From assembly GCA_030602785.1 (NCBI GenBank), contig JAUVZB010000016.1, positions 1 to 41,891 of the forward strand: a DNA stretch of 41,891 nucleotides, given 5' to 3'. The position numbers and the translations under genes are program-made. Shown here piece by piece: positions 1 to 30,295 of this stretch. Below the pieces are notes generated by a model, which saw only the letters and a list, made by a program, of their open reading frames with translations, was not told the DNA's origin and ran no database searches. Source of the DNA: Dehalococcoidia bacterium (GTDB taxonomy: Bacteria > Chloroflexota > Dehalococcoidia > GIF9 > AB-539-J10). Every line of letters starts with the position of its first letter. Position 1 is the stretch's first letter.

Positions 1-137
1 TGCAGCAATGCCGGCATGAGAAACATCTGCCCGGGCTCGTATGGACGGAACGTCTTGCTCACGCGTCTCCCCCTCGCTCAGCTTTGCCCCAATTATACCT
101 TCCATACGTGCCCAAAGCTATTACTCGGACAGGCTCC
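1..137. mobile_element. Right end of a TA-flanked inverted-repeat element (left end outside window)
   Basis: Bases 120-137 read ATTACTCGGACAGGCTCC and are followed by TA (138-139). The same terminal sequence, with the TA, closes the two small elements at 21604-21770 and 21773-21865 (two mismatches to the right end of the latter). The rest of 1-119 has no recognisable coding content and does not resemble the interiors of the other two elements. TA-flanked ends of this kind are typical of IS630/Tc1-mariner elements and their MITEs; the family assignment is inference. Confidence 0.5.
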
Positions 138-1843
138 TAGCAAAGCTTGTCGCGCTCATTGAGACAATCGAAGCGCAAGTGTCCAATGAGGCCTTCGACG
201 CGAATCTGAAGGCAAAGCAGGAGGCCGCGACAAAGCGGCGTGCGGCCAGCGAGGATGCCAAGCGTGTGTTCTCGACTGCGCCTTTGGAGGGAGTCGCATC
301 CGAAAGCTGGCGTTCACTGTGGGAGCAAGCGCGTGCCTTCTCAGAGCAAGCGGCATACCCAGCCACGGCGTTTCCGAATACGGGTGATGAGGCAAGGTGT
401 GTCCTTTGCCAGCAACTGCTCACAGACGACGCTAGGAGTCGCCTCCGGGGGTTCGAGGACTTCGTCAGGGGAAACCTTGAACGCAGCGCGGCCGAGGCTG
501 AGAGACGCCACCAGAAACTGGTCCAGGGTCGAGTTGAGATTCCGAATGACGAGGAACTGGAGGGCAAGCTCGATCTTGCGGGAGTGACGGACGAAACCAT
601 TCAGGGGTTGATGAGGTCGCGTTTTGCGACGATGCGTTCTCGACAGGAGCAATTCTGCATTGTGGAGGATGCGGACACGCTGCCCACCCTGCCAGTCCAG
701 CCCGTCGCGGAGTACCTTGCCGAATTGGAAACGAAGCTAGAGAGCCATGCGAGTGGATTCGAGGAAGATGCCGCGTCAAGTAACCTTGATGAGGTGCGAG
801 ATCAGAAGCGCGAAGTCGAAGCGCGCAAATGGCTGTCCGCACAAAGGCCCTCGATCGAGGTCGAAGTCGATCGGCAGAAGGGTATCCAGCTCCTGGAGAA
901 GGCTCGGCGACTCACGAACACAAGGGCGTTATCAGAGAAAGCATCCCGTCTATCCGAAGAATTGGTATCGGACGCATTCAAGCAGCGTTTCGAGCAGGAG
1001 TTGACGACGCTTGGCGCCTCAACGCTTCGAGTGAGCTTGGACAAAGCGAAGGCGAGCAAGGGGCAGGTCTGGCATAGGCTCAAGCTGAGGCAAGTCCAAC
1101 GGACTGTCCCAACCAGGGACATCCTGAGTGAGGGTGAATTCCGGATAGTCTCTATCGCTGCGTTTCTAGCGGACGTTGCGGCGGACCGCGGCAGCACGGC
1201 ATTCATCTTCGATGACCCCATTTCTTCCCTTGACCAATTCTTCGAGGAGAGAGTCGCCGAACGCCTCGTTACACTTGCCAGGTCCAGACAGGTAATAGTC
1301 CTCACTCATAGACTTTCACTTCTCTCCTCTCTTGAGGAAGCAGCTCGCAAGTCAGATATGCACAGTCGGGTCATTTCGCTTGAGAGACAGCCTTGGGGAA
1401 CAGGTGAACCAGGTGATGCACCTTTACCAGCACAGAAGCCGAACAAGGCACTGAACACGTTGTTGAACGAGAAGCTGTCGAAGGCGAAGAAGGTGTACCA
1501 AGAAGTCGGCTCGTCGGAGTACTCGGATCTCGCTACGGGCCTCTGCAACAGCATTCGCATCACGATTGAGCGCCTCATCGAGTATGACTTGCTTGCTGAT
1601 GTAGTTCAACGGTTCCGGAGGCCTATCACCACCGTGGGCAAGCTTGACAGGATAGCGAAGGTCACAGCCGAGGACTGCAGATTCATTGACTCCATGATGA
1701 CGAAGTACTCCCGCTATGAACACTCGCAGCCGGAAGAAGCACCAGTGGCTCTGCCAGACCCAGACGAACTTCACGATGACCTGACGAGACTCATCGAATG
1801 GCAGAGCGAATTCTCCAAGCGTGAAGAGGTTCCCCAGCCATGA
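41..1843 (+). CDS. RloC-like zinc-hook ABC-type ATPase, N-terminally truncated
   Basis: The visible protein is the C-terminal part of an SMC/Rad50-type ATPase. It has a zinc-hook-like CVLC (residues 120-123) between charged helical, coiled-coil-like segments, an ABC signature LSEGEF (about 361-366), Walker B FIFDDPISSLD (about 388-398) and an H-loop VLTHR (about 420). No Walker A is present. The C-terminal domain has R506, E510 and H561, reminiscent of the Arg-Glu-His triad of PrrC/RloC anticodon nucleases, though the E-to-H spacing is longer than in PrrC. The stop overlaps the hsdR start (ATGA), which fits the known position of RloC/PrrC-type genes inside type I restriction loci. Residues 1 to about 33 are encoded by the end of a mobile element, so the original N-terminus was lost or lies beyond the window. 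There is an in-frame stop at 17-19, so the fragment cannot be extended upstream. It is probably a non-functional remnant; the true start, if any, is unknown. Confidence 0.7.
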   Translation: MDGTSCSRVSPSLSFAPIIPSIRAQSYYSDRLLAKLVALIETIEAQVSNEAFDANLKAKQEAATKRRAASEDAKRVFSTAPLEGVASESWRSLWEQARAFSEQAAYPATAFPNTGDEARCVLCQQLLTDDARSRLRGFEDFVRGNLERSAAEAERRHQKLVQGRVEIPNDEELEGKLDLAGVTDETIQGLMRSRFATMRSRQEQFCIVEDADTLPTLPVQPVAEYLAELETKLESHASGFEEDAASSNLDEVRDQKREVEARKWLSAQRPSIEVEVDRQKGIQLLEKARRLTNTRALSEKASRLSEELVSDAFKQRFEQELTTLGASTLRVSLDKAKASKGQVWHRLKLRQVQRTVPTRDILSEGEFRIVSIAAFLADVAADRGSTAFIFDDPISSLDQFFEERVAERLVTLARSRQVIVLTHRLSLLSSLEEAARKSDMHSRVISLERQPWGTGEPGDAPLPAQKPNKALNTLLNEKLSKAKKVYQEVGSSEYSDLATGLCNSIRITIERLIEYDLLADVVQRFRRPITTVGKLDRIAKVTAEDCRFIDSMMTKYSRYEHSQPEEAPVALPDPDELHDDLTRLIEWQSEFSKREEVPQP

Positions 1844-4800
1844 CGCCACGCGACTACACCGAGGATACCCTGGTGCAGCAGACGACTGCGGAGTATCTTG
1901 AAGAACAGCTCGGCTGGGAGTCTCTCTACGCGCACAACACCGAGACCTTCGGTCCGGAGGGAACGCTCGGCCGGCTTTCAGACCGCGAGGTTGTCCTGAT
2001 TCGGCATCTGCGACAGAAGCTGACTGAGTTCAACCCTGGCCTCCCCACAGAGGCCTACGACGATGCGGTCCGACAAGTCGTCTCGGTCTCCTCCACGCAG
2101 ACCATGTTGGCGATGAACCGCGAGAAATTCGAGCTAGTGAAGGACGGCGTTCGGGTTGCCTTCCACAATGACAAGGGGGAACGGGTTCGTCAGCGGCTGC
2201 GCCTGTTTGACTTCGAGAGACCGGACAACAACCACTTCCTTTGCGTACGCGAGTTCTGGGTGCGCGGTGATCTGTACCGGCGGCGGGCAGACATCGTTGG
2301 CTTCGTCAACGGTCTACCGTTGCTCTTCATAGAACTCAAGAACGTCACCAAGGACATTCAGATAGCCTACGAGAAGAACCTCTCCGACTACAAGGACACC
2401 GTCCCGCACCTGTTCCACCACAACGCATTCATCGTCCTTGCCAACGGGGACAAGGCCAGGATTGGGACACTGTCCAGCCGGTTCGAGCACTTCCACGAGT
2501 GGAAGCGCCTGGCCGAGGAAGAATCGGGCATCGTGGACATGCAGACGCTGCTCAAGGGAGTATGCGAGAAGCACAACTTCATGGACCTGCTTGAGAACTT
2601 CATCGTTTTTGACGATTCACCCGGCGAAACGCACAAGATTCTCGCCCGGAACCACCAGTTCCTTGGCGTCAATCGCGCTATGGAGGCAGTGAAGGACCGA
2701 AAGAGCCGCCAGGGCAAGCTCGGCGTGTTCTGGCACACGCAGGGCGCAGGGAAGAGCTACTCGATGGTCATGTTCACTCGCAAGATTCACCGCAAGCTTG
2801 GCGGCAACTTCACCTTCGTGATTCTAACCGATCGCGCGGACCTGGATACACAGATCTACAAGACATTCGTTGGCTGCGGTGTGGTGGACACCGACGGCGA
2901 CCAGTGCCGCGCTGCCAGCGGTGAACATCTCAGTCGGCTTCTTGCTCTGCAGAAGTCGCACGTTTTTTCGCTGATTCAGAAGTTCAACCAGGATGTGGAA
3001 CCGGGCGCCGCGTATACGCAGCGAGACGACGTCATCGTCATTACTGACGAAGCACACCGGACACAGTACGGCATGTTGGCACTCAATATGCGTAACGCCC
3101 TGCCGAACGCAAACTACATCGGCTTCACCGGCACCCCGCTATTCACAGACGACCAGATTACCCGCCGAGTCTTCGGTGAGTACGTCTCGACCTACGACTT
3201 CCAACGCGCCGTAGAGGATGGAGCGACGCTACCGCTGTACTACGACGCCCGTGGCGAGAAACTCGGGTTGGCAAAGGGCAACCTTCTCGATCGCATGGCC
3301 GCGAAGGTAGAAGAACTTGAAACACAAGACATTGACGTTGCGGAGCGACTGGAAAAGGAGCTGAAACGAGACTACCACATACTCACAGCGAACAAGAGGC
3401 TGGACCAGATTGCGCGCGACTTCGTCACGCACTATTCAAACGCGTGGGAGACGGGCAAGGCCATGCTGGTCTGCATCGACAAGGTCACCTGCGTACGCAT
3501 GCACAACCTCATTGTGAAGTACTGGGACAAGCGCATCCGTGACTTGGAGGCGGACATTGCCACAGCCGCAGATGAGCAGGAAGAAGTCTTCTATCGCCGT
3601 CAGATCCAGTGGATGCGAGAGACTCGTGTGGCCGTTGTCGTCAGTGAAGAGCAAGGCGAGGTTGACAGGTTTCGCAAGTGGGGTCTGAATGTCACCCCAC
3701 ACCGCAGCTTGATGAAAAAGGGAATGGATTTGCCGGAGTCCATGCGGCAGCAACCCCAATTCCGCAACATACAACACATGGACCTTGATGAAGCATTCAA
3801 ACAGGCAGAACACCCATTCAGAATCGCCATAGTGTGCGCCATGTGGCTCACCGGGTTCAACGTGCCCTGCCTGTCCACAATCTATCTGGACAAGCCACTG
3901 AAGGCGCACACACTCATGCAGGCGATTGCACGCGCGAATCGGAAGAACGAAGGCAAGAACAACGGCCTCATCGTTGACTACTGTGGCATCCTCAAGAACC
4001 TTCGGAATGCGCTGGCCACGTTTGCGGGGCAGGCCGACAGCGGCCACGGTGGCGGTGGCACCGAACACGAACCAGCTAGGCCAGAAGAAGAACTCCTTTC
4101 CGAACTCGCTGAAGCCATCGTCTATGTGCGGGCCTTCCTGACAGATCGGAATGCTTCACTCGAAGATATCATGAGCAGGTCGGGCTTTGAGCGGCTTGCC
4201 GCCATTATGGCCGCCAAGGAGGCGGCGAACCAGAATGATGAAACAAGAAAGCGCTTTGAGATCATGTGTCGCGAGGTCTTCAGGAAGTTCAAGGCGTGTA
4301 TCAACATCGCTGGCGTGAATGCGCATCGCAGGGACTACGGCGCGATCAACGTTGTCTACAGGAGTCTTCACCAAGATCGTGAGCGCGCGGACATCACGGG
4401 CATCATCCGAGAGCTTCACAAGATTGTGGACGAAGCTATTGTGCCCACGACAGACCAAGTCGGGGAGGAACGGGCACCCTACGACATCAGCAAGATTGAC
4501 TTTGAGCGGCTCCGCAAGGAGTTCGAACGAACGCTCGGCAAGAGAACCACGGTTCAGAATCTGAAGCAGGCTATCGAGAAGAGACTCCAGAGACTCCTTG
4601 AACAGAACCCACTGCGCACGGACTTCCAGCAGCACTACGAGCAGATTGTGGCCGAGTACAACCGTGAGAAAGACCGTGTGAGCATCGAGCGGACATTCGA
4701 AGCGTTGCTGAAGTTGGTCCAGGAACTGGACGAGGAAGAGAACCGGGCGGTCCGGGAAGGCCTCGACGAAGAATCGTTGGCCGTGTTCGACCTGCTAAAA

Positions 4801-5079
4801 AAGCCGGAGCTGAGCGCACAAGACATCAAACGCGTCAAGAGAGTTGCTGTCGGACTTCTGGAGACGCTGAAGGCGGAACGGCTGAGAGTCGACCACTGGG
4901 GGGAAAAGGAATCGACTCGCGACGGAGTGCTGACGGCGATTCGCGACTTCCTGTGGAGACAGGACACCGGGCTTCCTGAAGACTCCTACACAGATGAGGA
5001 GGTCAACGCGAAGTCCGACGACGTGTTCAGACACGTGTTGCGTGCATACCCAACGCTCCCGTCACCGTGCTACGCATGA
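1840..5079 (+). CDS. hsdR: Type I restriction enzyme, R (motor/nuclease) subunit HsdR
   Basis: This 1079-residue protein is a full-length HsdR. The N-terminal nuclease domain carries the PD-(D/E)XK signature: D in RRRADIVG near 151 and ELK near 164-166. A superfamily 2 translocase follows, with Walker A HTQGAGKSYSM (near 298), DEAH (near 402) and TGFTGTPLF (motif III region near 427). Motif VI is ANRKNEGKNNGLIVDY with QAIARANR just before it. The C-terminal ~300 residues are helical, as expected for the subunit that docks on the methyltransferase. In the HsdR2M2S complex it cuts unmodified DNA after ATP-driven translocation. The start ATG overlaps the stop of the preceding ATPase by 4 bp, indicating translational coupling. 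The hsdM and hsdS partners are not in the window and presumably lie upstream. No terminator is visible after the stop; a MITE-like repeat begins 17 bp later. Confidence 0.96.
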   Translation: MTPRDYTEDTLVQQTTAEYLEEQLGWESLYAHNTETFGPEGTLGRLSDREVVLIRHLRQKLTEFNPGLPTEAYDDAVRQVVSVSSTQTMLAMNREKFELVKDGVRVAFHNDKGERVRQRLRLFDFERPDNNHFLCVREFWVRGDLYRRRADIVGFVNGLPLLFIELKNVTKDIQIAYEKNLSDYKDTVPHLFHHNAFIVLANGDKARIGTLSSRFEHFHEWKRLAEEESGIVDMQTLLKGVCEKHNFMDLLENFIVFDDSPGETHKILARNHQFLGVNRAMEAVKDRKSRQGKLGVFWHTQGAGKSYSMVMFTRKIHRKLGGNFTFVILTDRADLDTQIYKTFVGCGVVDTDGDQCRAASGEHLSRLLALQKSHVFSLIQKFNQDVEPGAAYTQRDDVIVITDEAHRTQYGMLALNMRNALPNANYIGFTGTPLFTDDQITRRVFGEYVSTYDFQRAVEDGATLPLYYDARGEKLGLAKGNLLDRMAAKVEELETQDIDVAERLEKELKRDYHILTANKRLDQIARDFVTHYSNAWETGKAMLVCIDKVTCVRMHNLIVKYWDKRIRDLEADIATAADEQEEVFYRRQIQWMRETRVAVVVSEEQGEVDRFRKWGLNVTPHRSLMKKGMDLPESMRQQPQFRNIQHMDLDEAFKQAEHPFRIAIVCAMWLTGFNVPCLSTIYLDKPLKAHTLMQAIARANRKNEGKNNGLIVDYCGILKNLRNALATFAGQADSGHGGGGTEHEPARPEEELLSELAEAIVYVRAFLTDRNASLEDIMSRSGFERLAAIMAAKEAANQNDETRKRFEIMCREVFRKFKACINIAGVNAHRRDYGAINVVYRSLHQDRERADITGIIRELHKIVDEAIVPTTDQVGEERAPYDISKIDFERLRKEFERTLGKRTTVQNLKQAIEKRLQRLLEQNPLRTDFQQHYEQIVAEYNREKDRVSIERTFEALLKLVQELDEEENRAVREGLDEESLAVFDLLKKPELSAQDIKRVKRVAVGLLETLKAERLRVDHWGEKESTRDGVLTAIRDFLWRQDTGLPEDSYTDEEVNAKSDDVFRHVLRAYPTLPSPCYA

Positions 5080-5096
5080 CAAAGGGTGCACAATTC

Positions 5097-5210
5097 CGAG
5101 GACACCATACTTAATTCACCTCACGTTCGGCATTGGCACGCAGTGAGCCGCTTTCCCCCGAATCACGCAACGGTAGCTTCGGAGCTCCGGAGATAAGTGT
5201 GGTGTCCCCA
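5097..5210. mobile_element. MITE-like repeat with GGGGACACCA termini (copy 1)
   Basis: The left end GAGGACACCATACTTAA and the right end ATAAGTGTGGTGTCCCC form imperfect terminal inverted repeats (about 14 of 17). The interior segment CACGCAACGGTAGCTTCGG recurs almost unchanged in the copy at 9565-9678. It lies between hsdR and the PIN gene in the 5080-5314 gap, which holds nothing else I recognise. The termini resemble the short palindromic repeats mobilised by REP-associated or IS200-like transposases, but no transposase is in this window. Confidence 0.7.
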
Positions 5211-5314
5211 TAACTCAGAAGACCCGGCGATTCGTAGTCCAGTTAAACCCGTGGAACTCCAGGCGATGAGTCAGCGAGCGTAGCCTGGCGTGGCGGCGAG
5301 CGCCGCCTTCATCC

Positions 5315-5848
5315 TCAATGTCCCCCACCTCTCTTGAGTGTCGCCAGGTATTCCGTGAACGACGAGGCCGGCAGCTTCCTCCTTCTGGCAAGCATGCCAC
5401 CCCAGATCGCATCGGCTTCTTTCACACCGAGGCGCCCATCCTCATACGACTGGAGCAACACATCCGGTGTGGTAAGCAGAGGCATCTTATGAACAGCGCA
5501 GAACGCCTTGACGTCCGACAGGTTGTTGCTTGCCAGAATCCCCCCACGATACAGCAGGTAGGCCATGCAGGACGCCTCGCCGGCACCGTAACGGCCGCTC
5601 TCATGGAACCTGGCCAACTGCAACGCTTCCGGAGAGCCGGCCATCATCGTCTCGATCGTGATGTGTCCTTTCTCGACGCACAGCTGAACCCGCGCTGCCA
5701 GATGCGGCACTCTGTTCAGTTCCTCCATGACCTCTTGCAGGATGATCATTCGCTTCGAATACAGGTCCTCGATAACGTCCATTCGGTCTACCCAGGCAAA
5801 GCTGGACACGAAGTCCGAATCGAGGACGATCGGGGCGTCAGTCGACAA
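5315..5848 (-). CDS. PIN-domain protein (putative toxin/RNase)
   Basis: The protein (177 residues from a TTG start) opens with IVLDSDFVSSF, the first strand and catalytic Asp of a PIN domain. It continues with an acidic helix EVMEEL and then GAGEASCMAYLL, with the second conserved acid. The strand ILASNNLSDVKAF follows, where the usual DD pair is replaced by NN with an Asp three residues later. PIN domains are Mg-dependent RNases, often toxins. I chose TTG at 5848 because GGAGGA lies 8 bases before it and no ATG fits; an in-frame start far upstream would run across the protease gene. It overlaps the ImmA/IrrE stop by 11 bp, so the two are translationally coupled and form the end of a three-gene operon. 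The toxin role is inferred from fold and context; the altered acid cluster leaves activity uncertain. Confidence 0.75.
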   Translation of the reverse strand: MSTDAPIVLDSDFVSSFAWVDRMDVIEDLYSKRMIILQEVMEELNRVPHLAARVQLCVEKGHITIETMMAGSPEALQLARFHESGRYGAGEASCMAYLLYRGGILASNNLSDVKAFCAVHKMPLLTTPDVLLQSYEDGRLGVKEADAIWGGMLARRRKLPASSFTEYLATLKRGGGH

Positions 5849-6575
5849 TGTCGGCTTCCTCCGCTCCCCCCAACACCTCCTCCAGCAGTCCCGCATCAGC
5901 CAGGAGTTCTTCGTACCTCGATTCGGTGATGAGTCCCTTCTCCAACGCCTCCACCGCCTTCTCCGCGTAGTCCGACACCAGTGTACTTTCGTGGGTGGGG
6001 AGATACAGAGCAGTGCTCTTCCCGAGTGACCTCGCACTCCGGATAACGTCCACGCACCATCTTTCGTTCTGCTCGCGCGTGATGAGCCTGAGTCCCTTGA
6101 GTCGCCAGCATATCGCTCTCCGGCTCACGCCGAAGAACTGCTCGAGGTGGACGATGTCCGCAAGAGTCAACTCCACCTCCGCGCTCTTGCGCAGCCGGAG
6201 TTGATTGAAGATGGCATCCTCCGGCATGAGCAGATGCACCGCGAACATGTCGGCAACCTGCTCGCTGTCCGAGGCGCGTTCGAAAGACTCCACCATGCAT
6301 GCTCTGCTCGCGAGATGCTCATCATGGAGGCAGTGGAAGAGCTCATGCGCCACGGTGAAGTGCTGGTGCCCCAGGGTCTTGGCGGTGTTCACCAGGATGA
6401 CTTTGACCCTGTTCGTCTTGAGCGTCGCACCGGACATGCTGCTCTGCAGTGGCCGCTTGATGCAGGTGATGCCGAGCGAACCTGCCGCCCTGTCCACGTC
6501 GCAATGCTCCGTGGATTGCAGCCCGAGCTTCAGGCGGGTGTCGATGACCAACTGACGCGCCTTTGCTTCATGCAT
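5838..6575 (-). CDS. ImmA/IrrE-family metallopeptidase
   Basis: This 245-residue protein has the zinc protease motif HELFH (in TVAHELFHCLHDEH, near residues 77-90) and a downstream glutamate helix EQVADMFAVHLLMP that supplies the third ligand. This is the standard ImmA/IrrE (COG2856) layout. Family members cleave or antagonise a partner XRE repressor. The partner is directly upstream: the XRE stop and this ATG are separated by 3 bp. The C-terminal ~100 residues contain another helical stretch (LTLADIVHLEQFFGVSRRAICWRL), HTH-like and common in this family. The gene ends inside the start of the PIN gene. I infer that it inactivates the XRE protein and releases the operon, as in RosmerTA-like pairs and ICEBs1 ImmR/ImmA. 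Confidence 0.9.
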   Translation of the reverse strand: MHEAKARQLVIDTRLKLGLQSTEHCDVDRAAGSLGITCIKRPLQSSMSGATLKTNRVKVILVNTAKTLGHQHFTVAHELFHCLHDEHLASRACMVESFERASDSEQVADMFAVHLLMPEDAIFNQLRLRKSAEVELTLADIVHLEQFFGVSRRAICWRLKGLRLITREQNERWCVDVIRSARSLGKSTALYLPTHESTLVSDYAEKAVEALEKGLITESRYEELLADAGLLEEVLGGAEEADIVD

Positions 6576-6578
6576 GTG

Positions 6579-6917
6579 CTATTCCCCAAGCAGCCCGTAC
6601 AGGCTGTCCAAGTTCGACGCGATGCGTTTCGCCTGCGCAATCACCGGCAGGTCGTCCGCGCCCAGGTCGGATACCCTGAAGGCGATTGCCACCTGAGGGC
6701 TCTCTTCCTTCGCAGGCTCTTCCAGGAAGTACGACAAACGGTAGCCATAGAGATCGGCCAGCTTCCGGAGCATCACCGTGCTCACCGGCCGCGCGCCGGT
6801 CTCGATGTACGATATGCTCTCCCGCTTGACGTTCAAATAGCTCGCGACCTGCTCCTGCGTGAAGCTGGACGACTCTCTGACTGCGCGCAGGCGCTTGCCG
6901 ATAGTCCCGCTGTCCAT
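6579..6917 (-). CDS. XRE-family HTH transcriptional regulator (antitoxin-like)
   Basis: The 112-residue protein starts with a Cro/cI-type helix-turn-helix (IGKRLRAVRESSSFTQEQVA...VKRESISYIETG, residues 6-42) followed by a helical C-terminal part ending ASNLDSLYGLLGE. The ATG at 6917 has an ideal AAAGGAGGT five bases upstream; two GTG codons just before it are in frame but sit on the ribosome site. It is first in an operon with the ImmA/IrrE protease and the PIN protein. A palindrome lies between the -35 and -10 boxes of its promoter, so autorepression is likely. Its specific DNA target is inferred, not shown. Confidence 0.9.
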   Translation of the reverse strand: MDSGTIGKRLRAVRESSSFTQEQVASYLNVKRESISYIETGARPVSTVMLRKLADLYGYRLSYFLEEPAKEESPQVAIAFRVSDLGADDLPVIAQAKRIASNLDSLYGLLGE

Positions 6918-6963
6918 CACCACCTCCTTTCCGTGTTACGCCGCGACACATCTAGTCAACAGC

Positions 6964-6992: not shown

Positions 6993-7047
6993 GGCTGCGT
7001 GATGCGCACACGTCACCACCGTCTTCGAGCGGGGAGTCTGAATTTCG

Positions 7048-7227
7048 CGGACACCATGCTTGGTTCATTGAATTTCGGGGACACTTCCCTAGTTCTGAAT
7101 TCCGGGAATTCCGGGGACACCACACTTAATTGCCCATCACGTTCAGACACGGCGTTCAGTGAGCTCTCACCGCCGTCGTTTGAACAACTTCAGCTGTGGG
7201 ACACCGGAGATAAGTGTGGTGTCCCCG
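7048..7227. mobile_element. MITE-like repeat with GGGGACACCA termini (copy 2) plus nested left-end fragments
   Basis: The complete copy is about 7112-7227: CGGGGACACCACACTTA on the left matches the right end TAAGTGTGGTGTCCCCG as a 17-bp perfect inverted repeat. Two more left-end fragments precede it, GCGGACACCATGCTTGG (about 7048) and CGGGGACACTTCCCTAG (about 7076), suggesting nested insertion and deletion. Together with the XRE promoter they fill the 6918-7293 gap. Confidence 0.65.
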
Positions 7228-7293
7228 CAATTCTGGATAGCGGAATGGATGCGGTGTCCTCGCGACTTGGACTGAGCAGTTGACCCGACTGTC

Positions 7294-7899: not shown

Positions 7900-8418
7900 A
7901 ACTCGTTCACCCACTCCTGACCGACATGTCTGCAGGGAGTCCTGTCCTGCCCGGTGAATCCGTCGGTCCTTTTCTCGTTGCGACCGCCGACAGTCGGCGG
8001 CCGGTATCGGGCATCAGCCACTCTCTCGTGCCGCGAGTCAGTAGCATAGGCCATCACACTACGCCGGTCAATCGTCGACTCCCGGGGGAATTACGGGGAC
8101 ACCATACTCAATTCCCTTTCACCCTGCGGGGGAGCCCGCACTCTGAATTCGGGATTGCGTGTCCCATCAGGGGTGATCGCCTGCAGGACGACGGGCCGGA
8201 CATGTCCGGCCCCTACCGGCACTTCTCCTCCCCACTCTGCGGGCAGCCATGGGAGGCTGCCCCTACGGTAGTACCGCAATTCCAGAGACACCACACTAGA
8301 TTCGATCTACGTTCGGCATTGGCAAGTGGTGAGCGACTTTCTCCCGAAATCACGGTGCGACCGCTTTGGCTGGGGGCCAGTGGGAAAGGTATCCCTGCGA
8401 TTGCCTCCGATTGAGAGA
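7900..8418. repeat. Repeat-filled intergenic region with MITE fragments
   Basis: This 519-bp gap has no convincing gene. A left end of the GGGGACACCA family starts near 8095 (ACGGGGACACCATACTCAATT) and breaks off after about 35 bp. It is followed by the composite hairpin repeat at 8172-8277. A degenerate GGGGACACCA-family copy (left end AGAGACACCACACTAG near 8283, interior ACGTTCGGCATTGGCA shared with 5097-5210) runs to about 8400 and lacks a clean right end. Open frames across the stretch are repeat artefacts. Confidence 0.55.
8172..8277. repeat. Composite double-hairpin repeat, copy 1
   Basis: The core is GTGATCGCC, then the hairpin GGGCCGGACATGTCCGGCCC, then CACTCTGCGGGCAGCC, then a second hairpin GGGCAGCCATGGGAGGCTGCCC followed by CTACGGTAG in two overlapping pieces. 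The same ~107-bp unit occurs at 9714-9820 and 9931-10038. Such palindromes with a CCCCTAC flank look like REP/MITE-type dispersed repeats; the function is unknown. Confidence 0.7.
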
Positions 8419-9426
8419 CTAGCCATGCTGGGTAATGCGAGCGCCCGTTCTTTCCTGCAGCGTCAGCTGAACGACTGAGTCCTCGTCTTCCCACCGTTCA
8501 TTCTGGCCGCGGTATGTGAACCGGAGTATCCGCTGGCTCTCACCGAGTGTGTTCACCACCACGCACAGGCAGTACCCCTCAGGGGAATACTCCTTCATTG
8601 CCCGGTATTCGCCTGGCGTTAGCTCGGTGTTGACGGTCTCACCTGACAGCCCTTTGACTTCGATTCGAAGCAGTTGGTCCAGCCTCCGAGCCTCGAGATC
8701 CCACCCGACCTTCTCTCCGGAAACATCGTTGATATCCCATCGTTGATCTCGGTAGTACTGCTTGACCAAGTCAACCGCTGCCCGCTCCACCTCTTGCCTC
8801 CGTTCTGTGTCAGATGCGGAGCCCCGAATCGGCCTTCCTGCCGTCGTTTGTAGGCCGAGTCGTGGCCGCCAAGTGCGTACGTAGTCCAGCACTGTTTGGC
8901 GGTACCCTTGATGCCCCGGTTTGTCGGCATACCACACGGCGTGTCTGCCGAACCCTAAGCCATCCGATCTCGCCCGGGGGACACGGAAGTCTCGCTGCTC
9001 GGTGGGAAGGAGGACCGCCTTTGCGGCGGACGCACTGACGTGATAGGCCCACTCAAGAGGCGAATCGGGCAGGCGTCGTTCGCCGACAAGATGACGCGGG
9101 CAAGGCCGGGCATTCGAGAACACGGTGGCATCGGAATACCAGCCCACTATCCGCAGGTCGTTGTGTGGATTGTTGGCACACCACAAGACCAGAACCTGGT
9201 CTATTTGGGACGAGGCAGCAGGGTCGATCCTCCGGAGATGCAGCGCGCCGCGCGATTCCATGTGTCCGTAGACCGTTCCTCTCTGGTCGGGCAAGAAGTT
9301 GTACATCTCGAATCCGAAGCCGTGTTCATCGGGGAACCCTCCACCCCTGAGTACGACATCGACTGTGGGGTTACCACGGTAGTACTCCATCCAAGCAACG
9401 CGGCAAAAGAGCATTCTTGCTTCCAT
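8419..9426 (-). CDS. DUF3883 (nuclease-fold) domain protein
   Basis: The 335-residue protein has two parts. Residues about 225-320 match DUF3883: ERAAVDLVKQYYRDQRWDIN, then EKVGWDLEAR and LLRIEVKGLSG, with a D...E-x-K arrangement typical of restriction-endonuclease folds. After that come LTPGEYRAMKE and YCLCVVVN. The N-terminal ~200 residues (MEYYRGNPTVDVVLRGGGF..., then LVLWCANNPHNDLRIVGWY) are unrecognised; they resemble a small ligand- or modified-base-recognition module, but that is speculation. The start at 9426 has AAGGAGG 6 bases upstream. The gene stands alone, flanked by repeats, in a defence-like neighbourhood with type I restriction and toxin-like genes. DUF3883 domains are often fused to helicases or ATPases in defence proteins; a solo nuclease role is inference. 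Confidence 0.8.
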   Translation of the reverse strand: MEARMLFCRVAWMEYYRGNPTVDVVLRGGGFPDEHGFGFEMYNFLPDQRGTVYGHMESRGALHLRRIDPAASSQIDQVLVLWCANNPHNDLRIVGWYSDATVFSNARPCPRHLVGERRLPDSPLEWAYHVSASAAKAVLLPTEQRDFRVPRARSDGLGFGRHAVWYADKPGHQGYRQTVLDYVRTWRPRLGLQTTAGRPIRGSASDTERRQEVERAAVDLVKQYYRDQRWDINDVSGEKVGWDLEARRLDQLLRIEVKGLSGETVNTELTPGEYRAMKEYSPEGYCLCVVVNTLGESQRILRFTYRGQNERWEDEDSVVQLTLQERTGARITQHG

Positions 9427-9564
9427 CACCCTCCTCCTTCTTCGTGGTTGGACCGCATTAGCAGCTACCAAGGGTCATCGTGGGAGCATCGGCCATACTT
9501 GGGAGCGGCCTCGGTCATTGTAGTCCAGTTCTATCCAGCGGTGAAGGGCCAACTGCGGGAATTC

Positions 9565-9678
9565 CCGGGACACCATGCTCGATTCCCTTTGCGTTCTGCG
9601 CTCGCAAGCGCTGACCAGCATTCCCCGGAATTACGCAACGGCAGCTTCGGCACTCCGGAGATAGGTATGGTGTCCCCG
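9565..9678. mobile_element. MITE-like repeat with GGGGACACCA termini (copy 3)
   Basis: The ends are CCGGGACACCATGCTC on the left and GGTATGGTGTCCCCG on the right. The interior TACGCAACGGCAGCTTCGG and ACTCCGGAGATA match the copy at 5097-5210 closely. At about 114 bp both copies have the same length, which supports a defined mobile unit rather than chance. Confidence 0.7.
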
Positions 9679-9713
9679 TGATTCCTCTGCATTCGGGCTG
9701 GTGCATCGCATAG

Positions 9714-9820
9714 GCGTGATCGCCTACAGAACGACGGGCCGGACATATCCGGCCCATACCGGCACTTCTCATCCCCACTCTGCGGGCAGCCATGGGAGGC
9801 TGCCCCTACGGTAGAACCGC
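9714..9820. repeat. Composite double-hairpin repeat, copy 2
   Basis: Nearly identical to copy 3 at 9931-10038 and close to copy 1 at 8172-8277. It has the hairpin GGGCCGGACATATCCGGCCC and the GGGCAGCC/GGCTGCCC stem followed by CCTACGGTAGAACCGCC. Confidence 0.75.
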
Positions 9821-9930
9821 CATGGTCCATGCCAGGACAGGCGTTCACGAACCGTCACGGCATTGGGACTGCACCCACGCTCCTGCGAGGGAGGCCCGCA
9901 CTCTGCATTCGGAATTGCGTGTCGAATTGG

Positions 9931-10038
9931 GCGTGATCGCCTACAGAACGACGGGCCGGACATATCCGCCCCATACCGGCACTTCTCATCCCCACTCTGC
10001 GGGCAGCCATGGGAGGCTGCCCCTACGGTAGAACCGCC
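9931..10038. repeat. Composite double-hairpin repeat, copy 3
   Basis: Same unit and orientation as copy 2. One base change in the first hairpin (CGGACATATCCGCCCC) weakens that stem, while the second stem is intact. High identity to copy 2, flank included, suggests a recent tandem or segmental duplication. Confidence 0.75.
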
Positions 10039-10170
10039 GTGGCCTACAACCGTTGGGCCGTTCACGAACCGTCACAACATTCGGACCACACCCACCACCC
10101 CTGCGGGCACGAAGTGCAGCCGACAAGAATCAAGTCACGGGCGCGCACCACACCCACGCCCCTACGGCAG

Positions 10171-10890
10171 CTACCCCACGGATGCGGCCGGGCACAGGCC
10201 GCTCAGAACACAGTCGCCGCAGCGCGGCCTGCGAGAGTGACAGACAGTGCGCCCGTGCTCTATCAGGTGAAGGTGGAACCTGTATCTCTCCGACGGAGCC
10301 ACGAGTTCCTCGAGGGCGGCCTGAGCACCCTCAGCAGTCATGCGGCTGTCGATGAGGCCAAGGCGCCGCGATACGCGGTGCACGTGTGTGTCCACGGGCA
10401 ACGCAGGCCTTCCCATCGCAAAGAGCAGTACACAACTGGCGGTCTTCTGCCCGACACCGCTGAACGACGTGAGGTATTCGCGGGCAGCTCCCAGTTCCAT
10501 CGTGTTCAGGGAGGAGAGGTCAAGGGACCCGTTCTCGCGCACAAGCCGCACAAGCATCTCTTTGATGCGGGCCGACTTGATTCTGGACAGCCCCGCGTTG
10601 CTGATGGCCTCCTCGATGTCCGCAGCGCCTGCGGACACAACCGCCTCCAGAGAGCCAAAACGAGAGAGCAGCGACTCGAAGGCGCGGTGCGAGTTGACGT
10701 CCGAGGTGTTCTGAGACAGGACCGTCTCCACCAGCACGTCAACGGCCCTCCCGCGCGACTCCCAGGGACGGGGCCCGTATTCAGCATCAAGTGCCCCCAT
10801 GATTTCCCCGGGCCTGCTGTCCGGCACGGAGACACGCTCCCCTTGAACGGAGCGAGAACCAACGGAGGCAGACTCAGGCATTCCAGACAT
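10171..10890 (-). CDS. nth: Endonuclease III-like DNA glycosylase/AP lyase
   Basis: The protein has the helix-hairpin-helix LTSFSGVGQKTASCVLLFA with the catalytic Lys (GVGQKTA). The following PALPVDTHVHRVSRRLGL contains the catalytic Asp. The C-terminal iron-sulfur signature C-x6-C-x2-C-x5-C (CHSRRPRCGDCVLSGLC) is complete. It removes oxidised pyrimidines in base-excision repair. The conserved core starts near IMGALDAEYGPRPW, so the first ~35 residues are extra and the start is uncertain: ATG 10890 is used here, ATG 10908 is also possible, and neither has a good ribosome site. It is transcribed divergently from the nucleoside hydrolase, with about 40 bp between starts. The N-terminal LSQNTSDVNSHRAFESLLSRF is typical of the HhH-GPD fold. 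Confidence 0.93.
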   Translation of the reverse strand: MSGMPESASVGSRSVQGERVSVPDSRPGEIMGALDAEYGPRPWESRGRAVDVLVETVLSQNTSDVNSHRAFESLLSRFGSLEAVVSAGAADIEEAISNAGLSRIKSARIKEMLVRLVRENGSLDLSSLNTMELGAAREYLTSFSGVGQKTASCVLLFAMGRPALPVDTHVHRVSRRLGLIDSRMTAEGAQAALEELVAPSERYRFHLHLIEHGRTVCHSRRPRCGDCVLSGLCPAASVG

Positions 10891-17985: not shown

Positions 17986-18480
17986 GGCAGTACGGGGCCA
18001 CCCCCATCGCCAGCAACCTCGCCGGGACGACGGCCGCCCGATATCCTAGCACAAGAGAGGCAGCGGGCCGGATTCGCATGGCTGTTCTGTAGCTGGTCCA
18101 TGGTTCTGTCCACCCGCCGGGCGGGTAGATAGTAGGCGGAGTGGAATTGCCTCGTTTCCCGTAGGGGCGGACCTCCGTGTCCGCCCGTGGGGGTTGGTGG
18201 GCGGCAGGGTGGGATTGCGTAGTGGGCCATTCTGGGCTGTGCTGCCCTTTGCAGCGTTGTGTGAAGACACGACGACGGGCGAGGCATGCCGGGTAGTGTG
18301 TCGTTCAGGGCTGTGTTGGCCTTTGCAGCGTTGTGTAACGACAGGACGACGGGCGAGGCATGCCTCGCCCCTACATTCGGACCACTCCACACCCACCTCC
18401 ATCGAGCCGATTGGGACGGTCACCGCACGGCTTCCATACCGTCGCTACGAGTCGTTCAGCCGCAGGGGGCGACTCGACAC
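17986..18480. repeat. Hairpin and tandem-repeat intergenic region upstream of zur
   Basis: This stretch has no supported gene. GTAGGGGCGGACCTCCGTGT plus CCGCCC (18161-18186) forms a hairpin with a CTCC-type loop. A ~74-bp unit containing CTTTGCAGCGTTGTGT and ACGACGGGCGAGGCATGCC occurs twice in tandem (starting 18234 and 18308). The second unit ends in a perfect 20-bp palindrome GGGCGAGGCATGCCTCGCCC (18351-18370) followed by CTAC, the same flank as the composite repeats of the 8-10 kb region. Confidence 0.6.
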
Positions 18481-24172: not shown

Positions 24173-24505
24173 GTTGCGGTCCTCACGCCATTGTCGCGGT
24201 TGAGCACCTGGCATGCAAGATTGTCGAGAGAAGCCAGGGCAACCACTACTACATCCCCATGACTGCTGCCGATCGTCTCGAACAGATGTCTGTGGCGATG
24301 CCAGGGATTGGGTGAGGGGGAGCGGCCAAGTGGTTGTCAGTTGTGCAGCAGGAGGCAGTCACCGTGACTGCCTCACTTTCTGGCGCGCCGGTTTGCCTGG
24401 CCACGAGACTGCCAAGATTGACTCAGTTGACATAGAATAGTTCCAGGGACACACTACTCCAGATTCGCGGAAGCTCGAAACAGTTCGTGTTCCTAGGAGA
24501 TAGTG
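24173..24505. other. Divergent intergenic region with hairpin and candidate promoter
   Basis: A perfect 10-bp stem GAGGCAGTCA-CCG-TGACTGCCTC (24352-24374) stands in the middle. TTGACA (24427-24432) could serve as a -35 box toward the ATPase gene, but no good -10 follows at 17 bp. TTCCAGGGACACACTACTCC (24441-24460) looks like a decayed end of the GGGGACACCA repeat family. Nothing else is recognised. Confidence 0.4.
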
Positions 24506-25855
24506 ATGAGATTGAAGAGCCAGTGGTCGGCGAAGAATCGGAAGCGCAACGCAATCAGCCACATCGAAATCAAGGGGCTGTTTGGCCAGTTTGACTACAG
24601 CATTCCCTCGTCTGATTCGGTCGAGGACATGACGCGCCTCATGGTGCTATACGGCGAGAATGGATGTGGAAAGACCACCATTCTGAAGCTTCTGTATCAC
24701 CTTCTCGCTGTCAGAGGCAGGGGCCACAAGACCTTTGTCGCTCGTTGCCCATTTCGCGAGTTCGTTGTGGAGATGACAGACGGGACTGTCGTCGGCGCCG
24801 TCCGTGAAGCCGGAGAACTGACCGGCAGCTTTCTCATCTCAGTGAAGAGTCCTGGCTCTGAGGCGCAGTCGTTCCGCCTTACCGCGGATGAGAAGGGAGG
24901 CGTTAGTGCGTCACACAATGATAATGGTGAGGTATTAGCCCGTCTCTGGCCCGCTTTGGAGAAGATTGACATGAGGGTGGATTTCGTCCCCGACGACCGT
25001 CGAAGTCCTGACTTCATGGGCGACGGCGACCTCGCGATTATTGAGGAACGCACCGTCGGTGTACGGCACGGCCGTGTTGTCAATATGAGGGAGGCGGAGT
25101 CTGGCTCTCCCGACACTCTCTTGCTGGAGACCACACTGAAACGGATGACTGACTCGCTTCGGACACGGATGATAACTGCGTCCAGTATGGGCTATGCGAG
25201 TGCAAATGCCATCTACCGCGACGTGGCGCTAGAGATTGCTCGATATCAGGGGCAAGATGCTCCGGTTGAGCGAGCGCAGGTGGAAGACATGGTGCGTTTG
25301 CTGAATGGATTGTCCCAAAGGGCAAAGGCATACGCTAGCCTTGGTGTAACGACGAAGTTGGATACATCCAGCTTCGTTGAGGCCCTGGAATCGACGTCTC
25401 CGCAACGTCAGGGGCTGATGTATGCGGTCATTCGCCCGTACGTTGATAGCGTCATGGCTCGCCTTGATGCCTCGGAGGACGTGGGCAACGCAATCGAGTC
25501 GTTCACCCGCAATCTCAACCGGATGTACTCACGGAAGCGAGTGGCCTTCAGTCTTGAAGATGGTCTATCGATTCACCTGCAAGATGGAATGGAGCTTTCG
25601 CCAGACTCCCTGTCCTCGGGCGAGAAGCAGCTCCTCCTGCTGCTCTCCAATGCCGTTGCTTCTCAGAGTCGGTCAAGCGTGTTGGTGATTGACGAGCCCG
25701 AGATATCCCTCAACGTGAAGTGGCAGCGCCAACTTGTCAAGACTCTCTTGGAATGTGTGGGTTCTAGCCCAGTGCAGGTCGTGCTTGCAACGCATTCCGT
25801 CGAACTGCTGGCACAGTACCAGGACAGCGTAGTCGGGCTCGCTTCGGGAGGGTGA
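24506..25855 (+). CDS. AAA/ABC-type ATPase, AriA-like (PARIS-type defence candidate)
   Basis: The 449-residue protein is an AAA_15/AAA_21-type ATPase: Walker A YGENGCGKTTI (about 49-58), signature LSSGEKQLLLLLSNA (about 372), Walker B VLVIDEPEISL (about 392) and the switch His in LATHSVELLA. The long middle region between Walker A and signature is helical and unlike a transporter. It ends at the start of a gene for a Toprim/DUF4435-type protein. Such a two-gene pair, ATPase then Toprim nuclease, matches the PARIS anti-phage system (AriA/AriB), where AriA scaffolds and releases AriB on sensing phage anti-restriction proteins. The ATG at 24506 has TAGGAGA 5 bases upstream. OLD-like or retron-associated ATPase pairs are alternatives. 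Confidence 0.72.
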   Translation: MRLKSQWSAKNRKRNAISHIEIKGLFGQFDYSIPSSDSVEDMTRLMVLYGENGCGKTTILKLLYHLLAVRGRGHKTFVARCPFREFVVEMTDGTVVGAVREAGELTGSFLISVKSPGSEAQSFRLTADEKGGVSASHNDNGEVLARLWPALEKIDMRVDFVPDDRRSPDFMGDGDLAIIEERTVGVRHGRVVNMREAESGSPDTLLLETTLKRMTDSLRTRMITASSMGYASANAIYRDVALEIARYQGQDAPVERAQVEDMVRLLNGLSQRAKAYASLGVTTKLDTSSFVEALESTSPQRQGLMYAVIRPYVDSVMARLDASEDVGNAIESFTRNLNRMYSRKRVAFSLEDGLSIHLQDGMELSPDSLSSGEKQLLLLLSNAVASQSRSSVLVIDEPEISLNVKWQRQLVKTLLECVGSSPVQVVLATHSVELLAQYQDSVVGLASGG

Positions 25856-25890
25856 CCCCCAATGTTGGTGGAGAATGCACGAAGGTCTTG

Positions 25891-26787
25891 ATGTTGAGTG
25901 AGCCACGACGAATAGCTGAACTCGTGGAACGATATAGACTCGAGCCTTCCCTGCGCGATGTCTACGTTGAGGGGAACACGGACAGGCGCTTTCTGAAATG
26001 GTATTTCGAGGGCAAAGGCTATGTCGACGCTGTGGTCTATGGAATCCAAACGGTTGAGGTTCCGAGTGATGTTGTTGAGAGACATGGCTTTGAAGTCGGG
26101 AACCGAGGCAGAGTGCTCGCGCTAGGAGCTGAGTTGGTTGGCGCACTTGGTGAACATGCCAAACAGGCCACTTGCATCGCGGACCGTGATTTCGACAGTG
26201 TCTTGGGTTCCTATGACTATGGCCCCCTGACCCTCTTGACGGACGGTTCTTGTCTGGAAACGTACTTCTTCGACCAAGAATGCGTAGGCAAGCTTTTTGG
26301 TGTCTGCCTCAGAGCGGAATGCCAGGTAACAGCTGAGTTGATTGGTCAGTTTTCCTGTGTTCTTAGGCGCCTGTATTGCATCCGGGCCGCCAACAAGAAC
26401 CTTGGACTCGGCATTTCGTGGATTGACTTCTTGAAGTGGTGTCGCACGGACGGTACCTTGATAGAGTTCGAATCGGAGAAGTTCACAAACAGCTACCTGG
26501 GCAGGGCGCACCATCCGGTATCAAATGAAGCCTTCCAATTGCGAGTGCTGGAGTTGGAGGAGGGGGGTAGAGGGGACTATCGCCTCTATGTCAACCGCGA
26601 TGACTTCGTCCGATTGCTCGCATGGTTTGTGAATGAGACGGGGTTGCGGTACCAAGGAGGGCGTAGACGCCGTGCGCAGCGGTATGAAGAGGATCAGCTT
26701 GCGAGAATGCTAGTAGGATGTGTCGAGTCACGCATCCTTGCCAATCATCCGCTCTTCTTGAACTTGGACAGCCGGTTACGTGGGTAG
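25891..26787 (+). CDS. Toprim/DUF4435-like nuclease, AriB-like (PARIS-type defence candidate)
   Basis: The 298-residue protein opens MLSEPRRIAELVERYR and then shows DVYVEGNTDRRFLKWYF, the first Toprim motif with its conserved Glu. ATCIADRDFDSVLG (DxD) and LTDGSCLETYFFD follow. This arrangement matches DUF4435, the AriB effector, which in characterised PARIS systems is a Toprim ribonuclease that acts on tRNA. ATG 25891 has AAGG at good spacing. A GTG at 25852 overlapping the ATPase stop is also in frame but has its ribosome site directly abutting the codon. It pairs with the ATPase just upstream, so the two are co-translated. The Arg-rich stretch GGRRRRAQRY near the C-terminus could bind nucleic acid. 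Activity and target are inferred. Confidence 0.68.
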   Translation: MLSEPRRIAELVERYRLEPSLRDVYVEGNTDRRFLKWYFEGKGYVDAVVYGIQTVEVPSDVVERHGFEVGNRGRVLALGAELVGALGEHAKQATCIADRDFDSVLGSYDYGPLTLLTDGSCLETYFFDQECVGKLFGVCLRAECQVTAELIGQFSCVLRRLYCIRAANKNLGLGISWIDFLKWCRTDGTLIEFESEKFTNSYLGRAHHPVSNEAFQLRVLELEEGGRGDYRLYVNRDDFVRLLAWFVNETGLRYQGGRRRRAQRYEEDQLARMLVGCVESRILANHPLFLNLDSRLRG

Positions 26788-28479: not shown

Positions 28480-28788
28480 GTGAATCACGTGGGAGACGGC
28501 GGTTGACGGCTGTAAAGTACGTCCTGCTGTAGCGTGTCCTGTGCTTCGGACTTCGTGCCTTGGCTCGATGTCCGGTCTCTGCAGCCGGATACCGCGAAGT
28601 CCTTGACACGGCTACCAGTGGTTGACTGTCCCCTGATGTGTGGTTTACAAGGTCGCGCCTGAATGTTTACAAATGCGGCTCCAGTGGTTTACAAATATGC
28701 GACGAAAGGTTTACAATTACAGCGTGAATGGGTTACAAGGCGGTCCGCCAGGGTTGATAGCCGGGCAAGGTTGCTGTAGGGCACACCG
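28480..28788. promoter_or_regulatory. Intergenic region upstream of the HTH-HATPase-STAS gene
   Basis: This 309-bp gap is dominated by the 22-bp-period direct-repeat array (28621-28760, listed separately). The first ~140 bp after the DUF3795 stop show no repeat or gene I recognise. No conventional -35/-10 pair stands out, so the promoter may be embedded in the array. Confidence 0.5.
28621..28760 (+). repeat. Iteron-like array: GTTTACAA every 22 bp
   Basis: GTTTACAA begins at 28643, 28665, 28687 and 28709. GGTTACAA follows at 28731. Degenerate matches GTTGACTG and GTTGATAG begin at 28621 and 28753. All seven positions are exactly 22 bp apart, about two helical turns, so the sites face one side of the DNA. 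Spacer sequences differ, so only the 8-9-bp core is conserved, as expected for protein-binding sites. The array ends 28 bp before the ATG of an HTH protein, suggesting cooperative autoregulation. A relic end of an IS21-type element, which also carries multiple repeats, is the main alternative. Confidence 0.8.
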
Positions 28789-29850
28789 ATGACGGGTGAA
28801 CGACGTGAGGAGATACGACGGTTCATCCTCGAGACCGTCGAGAAGCACCCATCCGACGTTGTGCGGCTTACGCAGGAGCGGTTTGGCATCAGCAGGCAGA
28901 TGGCGCATCGCTATGTGCGCGGGCTGGTCATAGATGGTCTGCTGGTTGGCGATGGTACAACGAGCGGGCGGCGATACTCCCTCCGTAGCCTTGTTGAGGA
29001 GCGACTCAGCCTCCGGGTGACGGCGGAGACCTCGGAGAGCGAACTCTGGCGTCTTCGCGTGAGACCGAGGCTTGGAGATCTGCGCAAGAACGTCCTTGAC
29101 ATATGTCAGTACGGTTTCACCGAGATGTTCAACAATGTCATCGAACACTCGGCTGCCGAGACCGCCTCTGTCGGGCTCAGCTTGGATGCCACCAATCTGC
29201 AGATGACTGTCCACGACGACGGCGTGGGAATCTTCAACAAGATAGCGCGTGAACTCAGGCTGGAAGACCCGCGCGTGGCGCTGTTTGAGCTCTCCAAGGG
29301 GAAGCTGACGACGAACCCGCGGCGGCATACTGGCGAGGGAATCTTCTTCACTTCGCGGCTCTTTGACAGGTTCCACATCCTCTCCGGGGGACTGTTCTAC
29401 TCACACAGCAGCGAGTGGGATGACTGGCTTGCCGAGATCGGCGAGCAGGATGAGCCCGGCGCAGGCACTACGGTGCTGATGAACCTTGCCGTGGATTCGA
29501 ACCGAACGCTTAAAGGCGTCTTCGACCGATTCGCCTCGGCAGAGGAGGACTACGCCTTCTCGCGGACGCATGTTCCGGTTCGTCTCGCGTCCTACGAGGC
29601 AGAGAAGCTCCTCTCCCGCTCGCAGGCTCGAAGATTGCTCGCGCGGGTTGAGCAGTTCAAGGAAGTGGCACTCGACTTCGATGGAGTGGACTTCATCGGC
29701 CAGGCGTTTGCGGACGAGGTTTTTCGCGTGTTCAAGAACGAGCATCCGGAAGTGGCTATCTACCCGGTACGGGCCAACGAAGACGTAGAGAAGATGATTC
29801 GGCGCGTGAAGTCAGGCGTGAGCGAGGGAGGGACGCGCTTCCCTGCATGA
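28789..29850 (+). CDS. HTH - HATPase - STAS-like (DUF4325) fusion regulator
   Basis: The 353-residue protein has three parts. Residues about 5-65 form a winged HTH (REEIRRFILETVEKHPSDVV, then ERFGISRQMAHRYVRGL). Residues about 105-225 form a GHKL ATPase with N-box YGFTEMFNNVIEHS, G1 VHDDGVGIFNKI and G2 HTGEGIFFTSRLFDRF; ATP-lid features are short. Residues about 275-345 match the STAS-like DUF4325: RRLLARVEQFKEVALDFDGV, then DFIGQAFADEVFRVF. This joins DNA-binding, anti-sigma/kinase-like and anti-anti-sigma-like modules in one chain. It lacks the phosphoacceptor His of a sensor kinase. It probably controls its own promoter through the 22-bp repeats; ligand and targets are unknown. The ribosome site (TAGGG) is weak. 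Confidence 0.85.
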   Translation: MTGERREEIRRFILETVEKHPSDVVRLTQERFGISRQMAHRYVRGLVIDGLLVGDGTTSGRRYSLRSLVEERLSLRVTAETSESELWRLRVRPRLGDLRKNVLDICQYGFTEMFNNVIEHSAAETASVGLSLDATNLQMTVHDDGVGIFNKIARELRLEDPRVALFELSKGKLTTNPRRHTGEGIFFTSRLFDRFHILSGGLFYSHSSEWDDWLAEIGEQDEPGAGTTVLMNLAVDSNRTLKGVFDRFASAEEDYAFSRTHVPVRLASYEAEKLLSRSQARRLLARVEQFKEVALDFDGVDFIGQAFADEVFRVFKNEHPEVAIYPVRANEDVEKMIRRVKSGVSEGGTRFPA

Positions 29851-29979: not shown

Positions 29980-30009
29980 CCGCTTTCACAAGTGAATAGG
30001 CAAAGGCTG

Positions 30010-30295
30010 TGAGCGGGACTAGTATGCCCACCAGCGAGTCTCAGAGAGCCGGGTAAGGTGTGAGCCGGTGACAGCGCAGGGGTTGAATGGACCCGGGAGC
30101 CGCAGACCGAAAGGGATTGTCCCGAGTAGGTTCTGACGGAGAGGGCACCGTTATCAGAGCCCAGGGTATAGCCCGGTTTGACCGGGACGGTACCTGAGAA
30201 GAGATGGCCGCACGCCTTGGGTGCGTGGTCAACTAGGGTGGCACCGCGAAGGCCTTTTGGCCCCTCGCCCCTATTGGGCGAGGGGCTTTCTTTTT
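30010..30295 (+). ncRNA. Tryptophan T-box riboswitch leader
   Basis: The leader has all the T-box landmarks: stem I closed by CGGGAC (30014-30019) with GTCCCG (30119-30124), the AGTA element (30021-30024), the AGAGAGCCGG region, and GGTGTGAGCC. The T-box consensus AGGGTGGCACCGCG is at 30235-30248, and a terminator follows. The specifier codon is most likely TGG (Trp) at 30088-30090, in GAATGGACCC and followed by a purine. Uncharged tRNA-Trp would pair with it and with the T-box bulge, stabilising the antiterminator and letting transcription reach trpE. The assignment to Trp is confirmed by the genes downstream. Confidence 0.92.
30260..30295 (+). terminator. T-box-controlled intrinsic terminator
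   Basis: GCCCCTCGCCC, a CTATT loop and GGGCGAGGGGC (30260-30286) form an 11-bp GC stem followed by TTTCTTTTT. It competes with the antiterminator that includes the T-box sequence. Confidence 0.93.

Follow-up and report, generated by a model that had tools for sequence, protein, structure and literature searches.

The question raised by this locus is what a row of seven short repeats does directly in front of a gene whose product combines a predicted DNA-binding domain with a SpoIIAB-type ATPase. The window, i.e., the whole stretch of DNA that was analyzed (41,891 nucleotides), is from a Dehalococcoidia bacterium (GCA_030602785.1, contig JAUVZB010000016.1, positions 1 to 41,891, forward strand). 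A first-pass annotation had described an exact 22-bp direct-repeat array of seven units, and this was borne out in the window, where all seven positions lie 22 bp apart (28621-28774); five units are good and the two end units are degenerate (Table 1). The array was not picked up by Tandem Repeats Finder in the window, because the spacers differ. It is nevertheless far beyond chance: four successive one-period steps, each with 7 or more of 8 matches, were present in the window, compared with at most one step when the full window was dinucleotide-shuffled 10 times, and the pattern GKTTACAA-N14-GKTTACAA had 0 occurrences in 200 shuffles. Within the 2.57-Mb genome this pattern was unique to the array locus. 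Comparison with the 92%-identical orthologue (L008) showed 2 differences in the 56 core positions, 10 in the 98 spacer positions and 32 in 141 positions of the upstream flank; at both core differences the orthologue version was nearer to the consensus.

Table 1. Positions in the window of the repeat units, the putative promoter and the gene that follows them.
Feature	Position	Strand	Basis	Remarks
Unit 1, degenerate	28621..28642	+		core GTTGACTG; same in orthologue L008
Unit 2	28643..28664	+		core GTTTACAA
Unit 3	28665..28686	+		core GTTTACAA
Unit 4	28687..28708	+		core GTTTACAA; holds putative -35 TTTACA (28688-28693)
Unit 5	28709..28730	+		core GTTTACAA; holds putative -10 TACAAT (28712-28717)
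Unit 6	28731..28752	+		core GGTTACAA; GTTTACAA in orthologue
Unit 7, degenerate	28753..28774	+		core GTTGATAG; GTTGACAG in orthologue
Putative sigma-70-like promoter TTTACA-N18-TACAAT	28688..28717	+	sequence prediction	formed from units 4 and 5
Gene for 353-aa HTH-GHKL-STAS protein	28789..29850	+	Pfam, AlphaFold2, Foldseek, alignment	

The domain architecture of the protein encoded by the 28789 gene, previously called an HTH-HATPase-STAS fusion, was confirmed by Pfam, AlphaFold2 and Foldseek. An N-terminal winged HTH (residues ∼3-65) is followed by a SpoIIAB-type GHKL ATPase domain (∼83-235) and a STAS-like DUF4325 domain (∼255-342). The Pfam matches were HATPase_c_2 and DUF4325 (PF14213), the latter with 56.3 bits against a cut-off of 23. 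The AlphaFold2 model, based on an alignment of 43 homologues, had a mean pLDDT of 87 and a pTM of 0.83 and placed the recognition helix of the winged HTH at residues 36-48. The best solved matches found by Foldseek were SpoIIAB chains (E 1e-5, TM 0.72 by target length). In the family alignment the ATP-site (N/G box) residues E112, N115, N116, D143, G145, G147, G182 and G184 were invariant. In an alignment made by eye, the D-S-S-G of SpoIIAA-type proteins corresponds to IGQAFADE in the STAS-like domain, and the phosphorylated serine of SpoIIAA, its position matched in the same way, seems to be absent. PADLOC and NCBIfam assigned no defence name to the protein.

The upstream regions of relatives were then compared. 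The set consisted of 53 homologues from GTDB species genomes; a search of the bacterium's own order gave two more genomes with the gene, one of the two being that of the 92%-identical orthologue, which was also among the 53. Short direct repeats were found immediately before the start codon, and homologues with such arrays at the same place came from more than ten phyla and were mostly 41-54% identical. In the averaged autocorrelation of 45 upstream regions, peaks occurred only at lags of 21, 22, 43 and 44. Three-unit arrays at p<=0.05 were present at 29 of 46 HTH-bearing homologues, compared with 1 of 41 control windows further upstream. Strong three-unit arrays (a score of at least 21 of 27) were present at 24 of the 46, whereas none of 75 promoters taken from other genes of these loci had one. 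Homologues from later whole-genome searches repeated the pattern, with strong triples in L100, L103, L107, L108 and L115. The exact period held in the window and was relaxed in relatives to 21 or 22 bp: over 72 loci, adjacent cores were spaced by 22 bp 28 times and by 21 bp 15 times, the other listed values occurring once each. Core orientation in the same 72 loci was 104 forward, along the gene, versus 17 reverse (n=121).

Homologues without any array had been named by the first-pass annotation as evidence against its reading. Such cases were found in part, as 17 of the 46 HTH-bearing homologues were without a significant three-unit array, several of them having two units, or a core in another arrangement. 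No array was present at six homologues that lack the HTH (L041, L053, L054, L056, L091 and L092). As far as the upstream sequences of these relatives tell, the array is associated with the gene and depends on its HTH. A Desulfobacterota-type clade (L036, L038, L045-L052; helix TKPTVLKYINEL) carried TTTATxxTTA-type elements with irregular spacing and not the 21-22 bp array. In L009 and L011, the region ∼30-80 bases upstream of the gene holds what looks like an operator mixing inverted and direct sites: a near-perfect inverted repeat TATTCGCAACTAAT...ATTAGTTGCGAATA was seen in L009, together with direct GTTGCGAA copies 22 bp apart (L009/L011).

The restriction of the array to this gene was examined by a search for GTTKAYAA-N14-GTTKAYAA in 16 genomes, with up to one mismatch allowed. 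The best match was at the family gene in 14 of the 16 genomes (exact in 12, one mismatch in two), and one-mismatch matches elsewhere occurred at about the rate of a reversed control pattern. For these reasons nothing in the 16 genomes pointed to a wide regulon with such arrays, the pattern search covering paired cores; single sites may occur elsewhere. Genome G092 had no match with at most one mismatch. Genome G090 had none at its family gene, where the array steps are 21 bp, and one exact pair elsewhere (GTTTACAA-N14-GTTGACAA, L062, G090:C44:10566-10595), which may be due to chance or mark a second target.

The core sequence changes between clades, and clades with other cores keep the same period. 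The common core GTTKACAA is paired with S/TRQAxxRH-type helices in both halves of the family tree, and in derived clades TCCTTTAAG is found with TPQAVxxH, AAAGTTTAC with RQAVFKN and GTTGCGAA with SRQAIRKH, the core groups having been assigned in the tree by eye from the upstream regions. The TCCTTTAAG clade is a single branch (100/99) with hosts in the Chlorobiota, Pseudomonadota and Campylobacterota, so that the core would follow the gene and not the host. In a matrix correlation, core and recognition helix were related when taken alone (r=0.30, p=0.001). The partial Mantel test, with the backbone (overall protein) distance removed, was borderline under automatic phasing of the cores (partial r=0.15, p=0.054), and for this reason coevolution of specificity between core and helix is considered likely and not proven.

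The first-pass annotation had proposed cooperative-type binding sites with the next gene encoding the binder, and comparison strongly supports this. The array tracks the gene across phyla with a fixed period and orientation, is nearly exclusive to it, is absent at HTH-less homologues and has a core that differs with the recognition helix. Taken together, these comparisons indicate that the array is the operator of the following gene and would be bound by that gene's own product, a reading to which we assign a probability of roughly 0.83. In the mechanism that we infer, the winged HTH would bind physically to the 8-bp core. As neighboring sites are separated by two turns of the helix (21-22 bp) and share one face of the DNA, several protomers could load side by side and cooperatively in one direction. 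DNA binding would presumably be switched in response to a signal when the SpoIIAB-like domain binds or turns over ATP and contacts the STAS-like domain. A counterpoint to binding at direct repeats is that a twofold-symmetric SpoIIAB-type dimer would more simply bind inverted repeats.

The sign of regulation was assessed from the geometry of the promoter. The putative promoter in Table 1 was the only sigma-70-like promoter found directly upstream of the 28789 gene, and a similar -35/-10 pair built from units was seen in 23 of 72 loci. The 21-22 bp period fits two turns of DNA and also the -35/-10 distance. As two adjacent units would supply the -35 and -10 hexamers, occupancy would most likely exclude RNA polymerase, and since the -10 is followed by units 6 and 7 in the window, repression is favored. 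Autorepression in particular therefore appears probable from this layout, with less assurance than the operator itself. A variant compatible with the autoregulatory operator, in which the protein activates its own promoter or the array titrates or stores the protein, has a smaller but appreciable chance of being correct: in several loci the array reaches beyond the promoter on its upstream side, and sequence alone does not give the sign of regulation, but units that overlap both hexamers and also sit downstream of the -10 in the window (28731-28774) form a layout typical of repression.

Tandem overlapping sigma-70 promoters with no regulator would be another account of the period. TTGACAAT can be read as a -35 (TTGACA) and as a -10 (TACAAT), so that the period would equal a promoter spacer of 17-18 bp; the hexamer pairs of this form, in the window as well as in the loci counted above, and the 104 of 121 cores that point with the gene agree with this. 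However, no such array accompanied any of the 75 other promoters of these loci, clades whose cores are not promoter hexamers (TCCTTTAAG, AAAGTTTAC, GTTACAG) retain the period, and 4-7 units are more than a promoter needs. The lack of an array at HTH-less homologues would also go unexplained, and plain tandem promoters were rejected as an improbable origin of the array. Sites for another host factor common to these genomes are less probable still; direct binding by the gene product is indeed deduced from comparison, but both the array and its core go with the gene through its transfers and in more than ten phyla, and the array occurs essentially only at the family gene and needs its HTH. Iterons of a replicon, which ∼22-bp direct repeats resemble in form, and multiple terminal repeats of an IS21-type element, both raised in the first-pass annotation, found no support and can practically be dismissed, as the array has no Rep, istA or istB gene or adjoining transposase beside it, lies between chromosomal neighbors (a DUF3795 protein and the trp operon), occurs once in the genome, and has neither a neighbor conserved across homologues nor a plasmid match.

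The autoregulatory operator was compared with known systems. Multi-site autorepressors likewise have repeated, helically phased sites over the promoter of their own gene. Multi-site operators are exemplified by those of iteron-binding Rep proteins and of toxin-antitoxin systems. To our knowledge, such autorepressors mostly use inverted repeats or serve replication. SpoIIAB/SpoIIAA and RsbW/RsbV share with the window protein a GHKL domain, which among solved structures best matches SpoIIAB, and a STAS-type partner domain; here, in contrast, both are in one chain with a DNA-binding domain, and no sigma factor partner was seen. The nearest described relative in kind is CapK/CapS. CapK is an ssDNA-activated HTH-STAS-GHKL kinase that phosphorylates CapS, a separate STAS-wHTH repressor, and CapS binds palindromes at its own promoter and at the adjacent immune operon promoter (Chambers et al., 2026, PMC13373217). 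The two systems have in common HTH, STAS and GHKL (SpoIIAB-like) domains tied to autoregulated transcription, a repressor of its own promoter (proposed here) and travel with accessory genes. They differ in domain order (HTH-GHKL-STAS here, HTH-STAS-GHKL in CapK) and in the use of one protein and direct repeats here, whereas in CapK/CapS kinase and repressor are separate proteins and the sites are palindromes. Moreover, no capS lies directly downstream in the window, and no partner gene or conserved operon was found in 54 loci. Because of the domain order, the absent CapS neighbor and the direct repeats, the window protein was not filed as CapK, and by analogy it may work like a one-chain version of CapK/CapS.

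An extended version of the operator reading is speculative, and we consider it doubtful as a whole. Head-to-tail contacts, in which the GHKL domain of each protomer meets the STAS-like domain of its neighbor, would build an ATP-gated filament on the same-direction 21-22 bp sites, and this one-gene switch, accessory cargo of genomes and prophages in many phyla, would silence its own promoter until released on a stress signal. If true, a partner switch would be folded into one transcription factor. No description of the HTH-GHKL-STAS family or its array was found in the open (non-subscription) literature; the array is very probably, judging from the comparisons above, a real and widespread autoregulatory operator of this family that the literature searched does not describe. 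It would give an almost unstudied protein family (DUF4325) a testable regulatory circuit, and, next to the recently described CapKS, would tie partner switching of the SpoIIAB type directly to DNA binding within a single chain. Across many phyla, natural variation supplies HTH/core pairs by the dozen, each presumed target adjoining its gene, which could be a source of orthogonal repressor-operator pairs.

The gene itself is rare: it was found in 3 of 84 genomes from the order, in 4 of 350 from a sample of the phylum and, for two other groups, in 4 of 337 and in 9 of 297. Clustering of neighbors showed no conserved neighbor gene in 54 loci, and PADLOC and Pfam revealed no partner gene among 103 neighbors, with only scattered housekeeping and generic matches. 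Searches of plasmid and phage records with the protein gave no match, nor did a distant blastn search with the locus. Relatives were present on nineteen IMG/VR contigs, some of them beside an integrase, spanin-like or tail gene. That the gene occurs alone, sparsely and at times in prophages suggests accessory cargo, with a role for example in the response to stress or phage.

Several further elements were observed in the window. Behind the 28789 gene lies a T-box leader that precedes trpE (30000-30275, + strand; RF00230, 88.8 bits, just below the gathering score of 93, E 4.5e-20); a promoter-like site (29951) and a terminator (30259-30287) accompany it. At 24503-26787 (+ strand), an AriA-like ATPase and, after it, a protein that matches DUF4435 weakly resemble a PARIS-type defence pair. 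In a defence cluster at 41-6923, a Type I restriction enzyme subunit (1840-5079) adjoins an AAA protein that has a PDC-S06 match, and there is also a CapP-like (5838-6575) and CapH-like (6579-6923) pair. Several GAATTTCGGGGACACC-like repeats, direct and inverted, are present at 7030-7260 and are possibly the remains of a mobile element end. A tandem repeat of 74 bp, with two copies that are 87% alike, is located at 18219-18364. At ∼8200-10240, translations of overlapping ORFs contain one stretch (such as GAASHGCPQSGDEKCRYG) several times, which suggests a dispersed repeat.
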